Source: Halalkaliarchaeum desulfuricum | Lineage (GTDB): Archaea; Halobacteriota; Halobacteria; Halobacteriales; Haloferacaceae | Reading direction: 5' to 3' | DNA length: 64,000 nucleotides | Assembly (NCBI RefSeq): GCF_002952775.1 | Contig: NZ_CP025066.1 | Location: forward strand, 3,038,001 to 3,102,000 | Shown: positions 3,280 to 54,709 of the stretch, piece after piece | How the letters are laid out: every line of letters begins with the position of its first letter | Numbering within the stretch: position 1 is the stretch's first letter | Made by a program: the position numbers and the translations under genes | The notes under the pieces: generated by a model | What the model saw: only the letters and a program-made list of their open reading frames with translations | What the model was told of the DNA's origin: nothing | Database searches by the model: none

Positions 3280-4377
3280 CTAGCCGTCGAACCCGTCTTC
3301 CCATCGGAACCGCCCGTCGCGCTGGATCACCTCGCCATCGACCGATAGTGTCGCATCCTCGTCCATGCCAGTTATCAGGTCGACGTGGACCGCCGAGTCG
3401 TTGCCCGACTCGCCCTCCGGGAGGCAGGCGTCGTACGCCCGCCCGAGCGCCAGGTGGACCGTCTCGCCCATCTTCTCGTCGAACAGGATGTTGTCCGTGT
3501 AGCGGTCGATCCCGCGATTCATCCCGATCCCGAGTTCGCCGAGACGGCGGGCGCCATCGTCGGTTTCGAGGATCGACGCCAGTTCCGCCTCGTTCTCCCC
3601 GGCGGAGAAATCGACAACTTCGCCGCCCTCGAAGGTCAAGTGCACGTCCCGCAGGCGCTTGCCGTTGATCGTCATCGGCACGTCGAAGGACACCTCGCCC
3701 TCGGTCGCCGCCGGCGCGGTGAACACCTCGCCGGAGGGCAGGTTGTGCGAGTCGTACGCCACCGACGCACAGGAGTTGACCGCGGTGCGTCCCTCGATCG
3801 ACATCGTCAGATCGGTCCGCTCCTTTCGGAGCGTGACTTCGCTTCCCGCGTCCAGGATCTCCTTCAGTTGCTGCATCTCCTCGGCCAGCGCCTCCCAGTC
3901 GCGCAACACCGCGTCGTAGACGAACTCCCGGTACTCCTCGTATGCCATCCCCGCCTGCTGGGCCAGCGACCGGGTCGGATGGACGGTCGACACCCAGTCG
4001 GTCGCCATCCGGGCCTCGCGGATCCCCTTCCGGGCCCGCGAGTGCGCCTGCTTGCGGTCGGGGGGAACGTCCGCCATCGCGGCCGTGTTCCGTCCGCCGC
4101 CGAGGCGCAACACCACGTCGGCCGCCTCGTACAGCGCGAGTTCGTGGTCCGGGTCCGGCTCGAACTCCCCGTCGTGCGCCTGCAGGTACGCCCGCGTCAG
4201 CTCGTCGGAGGCGTAGGTGAACATCGGGTTGGCCCCGCGCTCGCCCAACGTTTCGGCGACTGCCTCCGCCAGATCGTGGGCATCCTCGGCGACCGAGACC
4301 ACGACGTCGTCGCCCGGTTCGATCCGGGCGCTCCAGTCGACCAAAAGCTGTGCGTGTTCGGAGACGCGCTCGTCCAT
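3280..4377 (-). CDS. M29-family metalloaminopeptidase
   Basis: A 365-residue protein matching the length and motif order of peptidase family M29 (aminopeptidase T/AmpS type), cytosolic enzymes that remove N-terminal residues using two metal ions. Residues consistent with the metal site are visible: Glu in LPSGEVFTAP, Glu in GENEAEL, the His of ETVHLALG, and the HVDLITGMD segment close to the C-terminus. The N-terminal third has the Rossmann-like fold typical of the family, with VLRLGGGRN. It converges with the PIN toxin gene 14 bases away. The start at 4377 gives the standard MDERV...LLVDWSARI N-terminus. Substrate preference cannot be inferred. Confidence 0.88.
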   Translation of the reverse strand: MDERVSEHAQLLVDWSARIEPGDDVVVSVAEDAHDLAEAVAETLGERGANPMFTYASDELTRAYLQAHDGEFEPDPDHELALYEAADVVLRLGGGRNTAAMADVPPDRKQAHSRARKGIREARMATDWVSTVHPTRSLAQQAGMAYEEYREFVYDAVLRDWEALAEEMQQLKEILDAGSEVTLRKERTDLTMSIEGRTAVNSCASVAYDSHNLPSGEVFTAPAATEGEVSFDVPMTINGKRLRDVHLTFEGGEVVDFSAGENEAELASILETDDGARRLGELGIGMNRGIDRYTDNILFDEKMGETVHLALGRAYDACLPEGESGNDSAVHVDLITGMDEDATLSVDGEVIQRDGRFRWEDGFDG

Positions 4378-54502: not shown

Positions 54503-54532
54503 TTCGTTCGGACAGAATAGTCCCACCAGGAT
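54503..54532. repeat. copy of the 3' end of tRNA-Gln with flank
   Basis: 30 bases identical to 54622-54651, which span the 3' flank and last 15 bases of the tRNA-Gln gene (ttcgttcggacagaatagtc...). After this both copies continue with atcgaacc-type sequence, offset by one base. Such truncated tRNA copies mark att sites left by integrases. Confidence 0.75.
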
Positions 54533-54621
54533 ATCGAACCGGAACCAGACGTGCTCGCTCCCGCTGGTCGCTGCGCGCGACTGGTAGGGCTCGAATCCTT
54601 CCGATAACTATTCGTCCTCAC

Positions 54622-54651
54622 TTCGTTCGGACAGAATAGTCCCACCAGGAT
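54622..54651. repeat. tRNA-Gln 3'-end segment, genic copy
   Basis: The gene-side member of the 30-base pair; the other is at 54503-54532. 89 bases separate the repeats. Overlaps the tRNA 3' end (54637 onward). Confidence 0.75.
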
Positions 54652-54709
54652 TCGAACCTGGGTCGCGAGCCCCAGAAGCTCGCAGGATTGGCCACTACCC
54701 CATGGGACT
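54637..54709 (-). tRNA. tRNA-Gln (anticodon CTG)
   Basis: Reading leftward, the cloverleaf is complete: acceptor AGTCCCA pairing with TGGGACT, D arm around GGGGTAGTGG, anticodon stem CGAGC/GCTCG with loop TTCTGGG (anticodon CTG, reading CAG glutamine codons), variable loop CGAC, T arm CCAGG-TTCGAAT-CCTGG and discriminator A. It is 73 bases and needs no intron. The CCA end is not encoded, as is usual in haloarchaea. Confidence 0.92.

Follow-up and report, generated by a model that had tools for sequence, protein, structure and literature searches.

Does the short repeat beside tRNA-Gln(CTG) of Halalkaliarchaeum desulfuricum mark the place from which a virus or plasmid was lost, or does it belong to a structure of another kind? 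A preliminary description of this DNA (64,000 nucleotides, hereafter the window) had proposed an att scar, left by an element that was excised or deleted, or else a short satellite. The repeat search agreed with it on the repeat itself, an exact direct repeat of 30 nt (54503-54532 = 54622-54651, spacing 119) made of 15 nt of the tRNA-Gln 3' end and 15 nt of its 3' flank. The likeness between the tRNA and the copy nevertheless extends beyond these 30 nt: given one extra base, the whole T-arm half of tRNA-Gln is copied (GGTTCGAATCCTGGTGGGACTA in the tRNA, GGTTCGATATCCTGGTGGGACTA in the copy). In addition, the 89 bp between the repeat copies, overlooked in the earlier account, are one unit of a repeat family met at other tRNAs and in other genomes. 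The feature is probably not the scar of a lost virus but a single member of a family of small DNA cassettes with two hairpins each.

The unit downstream of tRNA-Gln(CTG)

The host tRNA gene, placed by ARAGORN at 54637-54709 (minus strand), is followed in its own reading direction by hairpin H1, a spacer, the inverted T-arm, the core hairpin, the tail copy and a truncated second H1, with a single unit at this locus:

54637-54709, minus strand: host tRNA-Gln(CTG) (ARAGORN, sequence)
54637-54658, minus strand: tail of tRNA-Gln(CTG), that is, T-arm and acceptor 3' strand (sequence)
54606-54636, minus strand: hairpin H1 of the unit (sequence, RNA and DNA folding)
54588-54599, minus strand: inverted copy of the T-arm, AGGATTCGAGCC
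54541-54587, minus strand: core hairpin, type A, CTACCAGTCGCGCGCAGCGA...GAGCACGTCTGGTTCC
54518-54540, minus strand: direct copy of the tRNA tail, GGTTCGATATCCTGGTGGGACTA, with one extra T-loop base
54503-54517, minus strand: second, truncated H1 (its start only), after the tail copy (repeat search)
54503-54651, minus strand: complete feature of the preliminary description (repeat search)

The H1 stem starts inside the end of tRNA-Gln (ACTATTC...GAATAGT). In the 18 other genomes with kept tRNA-Gln(CTG) loci, a tail copy was absent within 550 nt in all 18; one locus had a match at 557 nt. The earlier account had named a fixed local structure shared by many haloarchaea as the finding that would speak against insertion. 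The general structure is indeed widespread, as described below, yet it is no fixed part of the tRNA-Gln(CTG) locus.

Distribution across tRNA genes and genomes

When 60 genomes were searched with the window locus, the interval itself and not the tRNA alone had matches in many places, 18 of them in the congener G001. ARAGORN predicted tRNA-Val, -Arg, -Lys, -Gly, -Pro, -Asp and others upstream of the matched loci, and the units were often in tandem. The exact core pattern matched 96 stretches of genome contigs, haloarchaeal by title except for one "uncultured archaeon A07HN63". The first 80 of these stretches hold 85 core sites, 71 of which have a tRNA gene on the same strand within 1.5 kb upstream, with nine isotypes represented, and 14 of which do not.

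Tail copies were then counted behind the 44 tRNAs that the Rfam tRNA model gave per genome (window genome and G001), using the last 13 nt of each tRNA with at most two mismatches within 600 nt. Copies lie downstream of 18 of the 44 tRNAs in the window genome (24 copies) and 24 of the 44 in G001 (45 copies). The corresponding controls gave 1 and 0 upstream, 1 and 2 on the opposite strand, and 0.75 and 1.0 on average with the tail of another tRNA. As 18 of 44 stand against controls of about 1 in the window genome, the tail copies are beyond chance. Full units, with inverted T-arm and tail, follow 15/44 and 20/44 tRNAs, respectively. Matching the 44 tRNAs of the two genomes (43 distinct partners, with two identical tRNA-Ala) gave 8 pairs with a full unit in both, 7 in the window genome only, 12 in G001 only and 17 in neither. 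The left half of the type A core was found behind 3 tRNAs of the window genome and 11 of G001. An inverted T-arm (at least 11/14 nt) was present within 150 nt downstream of 16/43 and 20/43 tRNAs in the two congeners, the two tRNA-Tyr, in which the T-arm motif was not found, being left out; the controls were 1/86 upstream and 5/86 at 600-750 nt downstream.

On a broader scale, a pattern that does not depend on the core (an inverted T-arm, 30-60 nt and a T-arm) was found in 72 of 81 sampled genomes of the window's order (hand count) and in 2 of 311 others of the phylum (G215 and G418), and in no genome when read backwards. Arrays carry up to 7 tail copies and are unlike between sister species. 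One double copy (L104) has an N at its junction and could stem from faulty assembly; 90-bp artefact repeats are reported for drafts from one sequencing study (PMC7911831). No description of a tRNA-tail unit was found in searches of the open-access literature.

Six haloarchaeal plasmid records matched, five of which have only a 30-nt piece in common, while the sixth carries a tRNA array. On a Haloarcula halophila plasmid (L137), ARAGORN predicts 23 tRNAs in 8 kb around a TROVE-domain gene, and at 3920-4070 a type A core lies inside the T-arm of a tRNA-Cys-like gene that ARAGORN did not call. An intergenic piece resembling GCGCGCAGCGACCAGCGGGAGCGAGCACGGAG is common to four haloarchaeal plasmids (L138-L141, near 4000), with no tRNA predicted in the 8 kb read.

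Architecture, pairing and folding of the unit

Each unit runs from hairpin H1 through the inverted T-arm and the core hairpin to a direct copy that covers both T-arm and acceptor 3' strand. Its two hairpin modules, H1 and core, are thereby set between copies of the host tRNA tail that alternate in orientation. The inverted T-arm was present at 9 or more of 12 nt in 180 of 204 distinct units, and the 24 units below this threshold were excluded from later unit counts. It matched its own tRNA above the mean of the other tRNA types in 177 of the 180 units; inverted T-arm and tail covary.

For the pairing analysis, the type A units were thinned until no similarity ratio exceeded 0.9, which left 38 units. 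In the two-helix structure 93.1% of the cells are paired, compared with 86.3% after shuffling, and 55 cells carry double changes, compared with 16.5 after shuffling, a number reached by 0 of 500 shuffles. Both helices covary. A T-T mismatch inside the core stem is preserved in 108 of 110 units. The RNA fold of the window unit with its flanks gave z = -3.07 (-1.95 and -1.82 for the two halves) and the DNA fold of the unit z of about -1.7 on either strand. Along the tRNA strand, pair changes in helices 1 and 2 of type A led to G-U in 21 cases and to A-C in 6 (hand count); in a second count the numbers were 94 and 37, falling to 51 and 37 when one column was left out. This excess of G-U over A-C leans, short of proof, toward a role as RNA.

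An extra base, mostly in the T-loop, occurs in the tail copy of 14 of the 180 units, the window unit among them. In the window unit, H1 also contains the very end of the tRNA in inverted form; this was rejected as a general feature, as it occurs in only 20 of 180 units (1-4 after shuffling). A motif, GAGCGNAGCGAGC, is repeated in the loops of both hairpins at many unit-bearing loci, and a similar one, GGGCGAAGCGCGCAGCGC, is found in the E. coli RtT unit.

Module exchange and array turnover at tRNA-Asp

The tRNA-Asp locus of one genus was sought in 49 genomes and 30 loci were fetched; with L076 included, 29 of 31 loci were readable and two were without flank. Between 0 and 3 tail copies were counted per array, the match of the genomes to the query ranging from 78% to 96%. 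Among the 29 units, H1 families a-e and cores A, X and Y are mixed in many ways, the classes being defined by prototypes drawn from the same tRNA-Asp sequences. In pairs with a common core and different H1 (93 pairs), the core reached an identity of 0.94 and the inverted T-arm 0.88, but the sequence immediately outside only 0.31. In pairs with a common H1 and different cores (67 pairs), ungapped identity on the H1 side was 0.52-0.63; the inverted T-arm had 0.94 and the sequence past it 0.38. Identity drops outside the inverted T-arm, which places the module boundary at these 9-12 nt.

H1 families a, b and c also occur at other tRNAs, with similarity ratios of 0.75-0.88. The L076 locus, with H1 a and core A, has the appearance of an L218-type array after a deletion. 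If the newest cassettes lay at the anchor, as in integrons, distal tails would be the more decayed ones. They were so over all loci (17 vs 4, p=0.007); the numbers were 12 vs 4 (p=0.077) without tRNA-Asp and 2 vs 2 in the 15 arrays of the two congeners. A candidate for a larger autonomous copy (~1.5 kb, in G269) was rejected, as the ORF reading gave a TnpB-type ORF at the distal array end and not a recombinase-bearing cassette; a TnpB-like ORF (by eye) is located at L239 1784-3064, at the distal end of a tRNA-Asp array.

Integrases, integrative elements and viruses

The 14 core sites lacking an upstream tRNA correspond to 13 loci, and nine of these were examined, L042, L046, L065 and L110 being left out for lying less than 200 nt from the edge of the stretch. 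A tyrosine-integrase ORF was found within 2 kb upstream of six of these nine arrays without a tRNA within 1.5 kb upstream. The six ORFs match Phage_integrase or its SAM-like domains, two of them scoring over the PF00589 cut-off of Pfam. Two arrays were traced further, and tRNA-Ala was found ~26 kb away from the array in one genome and ~37 kb away in the other. At the far end of both stretches there is a tail copy whose last 14 nt are identical to the end of tRNA-Ala; the first of the two has five tail copies there. Judging from this tail identity, tRNA-Ala and the far end would bound a single element. Given the succession of tRNA-Ala, 26 or 37 kb, tail copies and array, elements seem to insert between a tRNA and its array. 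The ends of both traced elements are by eye unlike H1 or the core. At L086, the tRNA was not found on its contig.

The strict type A core patterns matched no viral contig and the unit matched no phage record. The looser pattern of an inverted T-arm and a T-arm gave 126 matches in 104 viral contigs, 25 of which are tRNA overlaps. Viral carriage of the unit was rejected, as the remaining matches are by eye unlike the haloarchaeal units, palindromes like that of L314 excepted. In this viral contig (13876-13933), a long near-perfect palindrome on T-arm-like sequence lies 56 bp from a tyrosine integrase (Phage_integrase) gene and is a possible independent analogue. Near-perfect T-arm-like palindromes were also seen in viral contigs L278, L292, L311 and L338. 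A 49-nt palindrome, GGATTCGAAATCCGGCGTACTGG...GGGTTCGAATCC, is nearly unchanged in many GC-rich viral contigs (L250, L252, L254, L257 and others).

These data agree with the proposal that tRNA tails serve as attachment sites, as integrase ORFs lie near 6/9 tRNA-less arrays and a tail copy bounds both traced elements. The same two observations, together with the direct repeat of the tRNA 3' end in the window, could be cited for a scar, in which a virus or plasmid was lost and stubs of its left and right ends remained between two att copies. A scar would, however, require stubs that resemble one another from tRNA to tRNA, that covary with the tRNA at hand and that are repeated in tandem, and what lies in the interval is a conserved structured unit found behind at least nine tRNA isotypes. 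The stubs would also have to come from element ends, when the two elements compared by eye end differently from H1 and the core and the type A unit has no viral or phage copies among the records searched. We consider a scar very improbable. The suggestion of a short satellite came closer to what was found, a gene-free structured unit. In haloarchaea, short direct repeats of tRNA ends should not, on their own, be taken for provirus scars.

Comparison with known systems

RtT is an RNA released from a tRNA transcript. The RtT repeats of E. coli tyrT/tyrV (RF00391) and the haloarchaeal units are alike in being tandem, in lying downstream of a tRNA and in ending each unit with a tail copy. In RtT, the inverted tail copy GGGGAAGGAT encloses hairpins as the inverted T-arm does in the haloarchaeal units. 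At tyrV/tyrT we found three exact 19-nt tail copies with a period of 178, and the length of the inverted 10-mer was reached by 2 of 1000 shuffled spacers; by the same measure, the haloarchaeal inverted copies have a median length of 10 vs a shuffled mean of 5.1. Tandem tail copies, an inverted copy and hairpins downstream of a tRNA are thus found in both (one unit in the case of the window locus). With an E limit of 1, the RtT covariance model found nothing in the 13 haloarchaeal loci scanned, the window locus included, compared with 132.9-137.5 bits on E. coli, and Rfam at E up to 1 gave nothing in the haloarchaeal units besides tRNAs and chance matches below cut-off. The haloarchaeal arrays also differ from RtT in occurring at many tRNA species, in having modules that are exchangeable at the studied locus, and in an inverted copy that tracks the T-loop type of each tRNA. 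By architecture RtT is the nearest known kind, but its sequence model does not take in the haloarchaeal units.

The attC sites of integrons are covarying imperfect inverted repeats, sometimes with an unpaired extra base. The haloarchaeal arrays resemble integrons (attI/attC) in their tandem exchangeable cassettes, fixed anchor and imperfect inverted-repeat sites that covary, exchange having been observed at one tRNA locus and covariation in type A units. Unlike in integrons, no gene was found in the haloarchaeal units read, and the anchor is a tRNA gene. The integron integrase model TIGR02249 scored above its cut-off in 0/40 genomes, with weaker matches in 25/40, and in the absence of an IntI above cut-off the arrays cannot be counted as integrons.

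REP/BIME elements are alternating palindromes with a linked RAYT transposase. Alternating palindromic units are found here too, and gene-free hairpins in alternating inverted units are shared with REP/BIME and with haloarchaeal MITEs/PATEs (PMC3119063). Unlike those elements, the haloarchaeal unit has its anchor in tRNA tails and is adapted to the particular tRNA. Archaeal integrative elements (SNJ2, pNOB8 and SSV type integrases) likewise use the tRNA 3' end, according to a review (PMC8371274), and an att core of 13 bp is quoted for an SNJ2 element. The unit differs from them in having no gene or recognised element ends, in its inverted T-arm and in its presence at many tRNAs.

Proposed origin and movement of the units

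The existence of the structure is well supported, and its mode of movement we infer. The explanation we prefer, with a probability of roughly 0.4, is that cassettes devoid of genes enter and replace one another at tRNA tails. They would be joined at the T-arm/acceptor sequence by a site-specific recombinase, most likely of the tyrosine type and provided in trans by integrative elements. Each cassette would arrive with its own tail copy, so that the tRNA gene would stay intact and the older tail would be moved downstream. Hairpin pairing might be kept because the sites are recognised when folded or because pairing hides the extra tail in the transcript. This model is consistent with the distribution of the pattern (72/81 genomes in the order vs 2/311 outside, none backwards), the differing occupancy of matched tRNA pairs in the two congeners, the module exchange at tRNA-Asp, the relatives of H1 a, b and c at other tRNAs, the inverted T-arms matching their own tRNA, the covariation, and the use of tails as att sites by elements carrying integrases. 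It also fits the stretch of identity at the module boundary, which is short for homologous recombination, and the T-arm-like inverted repeat beside the Phage_integrase gene of L314. Against it, no recombinase was linked to the arrays, no integron integrase passed the cut-off in the 40 genomes, viral contigs and phage records gave no type A pattern or unit, and by eye neither of the two traced elements has ends resembling the modules. Identity on the H1 side is just 0.52-0.63 when H1 is common and the core different, and the decay of distal tails is not clear without tRNA-Asp and absent in the two congeners. The count of G-U 21 vs A-C 6 favors a role as RNA and for that reason also weighs against a DNA cassette.

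This last point leads to the next explanation in rank, an RtT-type RNA element, which we regard as unlikely. The unit would be transcribed with the tRNA, and kept for its hairpins, which would aid tRNA maturation, termination or regulation or would hide the duplicated tail and so prevent misfolding of the tRNA; its duplication and spread would be secondary. The exact tail copies and the inverted tail copy around hairpins in E. coli RtT, the covariation in both type A helices, the G-U excess in both counts and the RNA fold of the window unit and its halves all argue for such a role. Nevertheless, much of the G-U excess in the second count comes from one column, the E. coli unit folds little better than shuffled sequences (z = -0.97), and the absence of a unit at tRNA-Gln(CTG) in 18/18 other genomes and from both members of 17/44 tRNA pairs means that it is dispensable there. 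We find it less likely still that the units arose spontaneously, with no dedicated enzyme. The palindromic T-arm would here prompt template switching or fold-back copying, and unequal homologous recombination between tails would then expand and shuffle the arrays. Fold-back copying would yield alternating direct and inverted tails, tail copies of ~22 nt offer some homology, and the apparent deletion at L076 would be expected. The same core families and relatives of H1 are, however, found behind different tRNAs in many genera, for which copying in situ fails as an explanation, and the modules are bounded at an inverted T-arm of 9-12 nt.

If the cassettes are truly inserted, they would represent a new kind of tRNA-anchored mobile DNA. 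The cassette explanation can be carried further, to an integron-like gene-free system with tRNA anchors, whose double-hairpin cassettes would be inserted, exchanged between tRNAs and removed by a recombinase reading the folded T-arm palindrome, and to which E. coli RtT and some prophage ends would belong, across two domains of life; we hold this extension to be rather improbable. The haloarchaeal units provide a large comparative data set for the E. coli RtT repeats.

A second class of units was also seen, in which the acceptor part of the tail alone (~15 nt) follows oppositely oriented CTCGCTTCGCTCG hairpins. These acceptor-only units occur on the reverse strand of L470 (731-1662) and behind Gly-TCC and Arg-GCG in G000 and G001.
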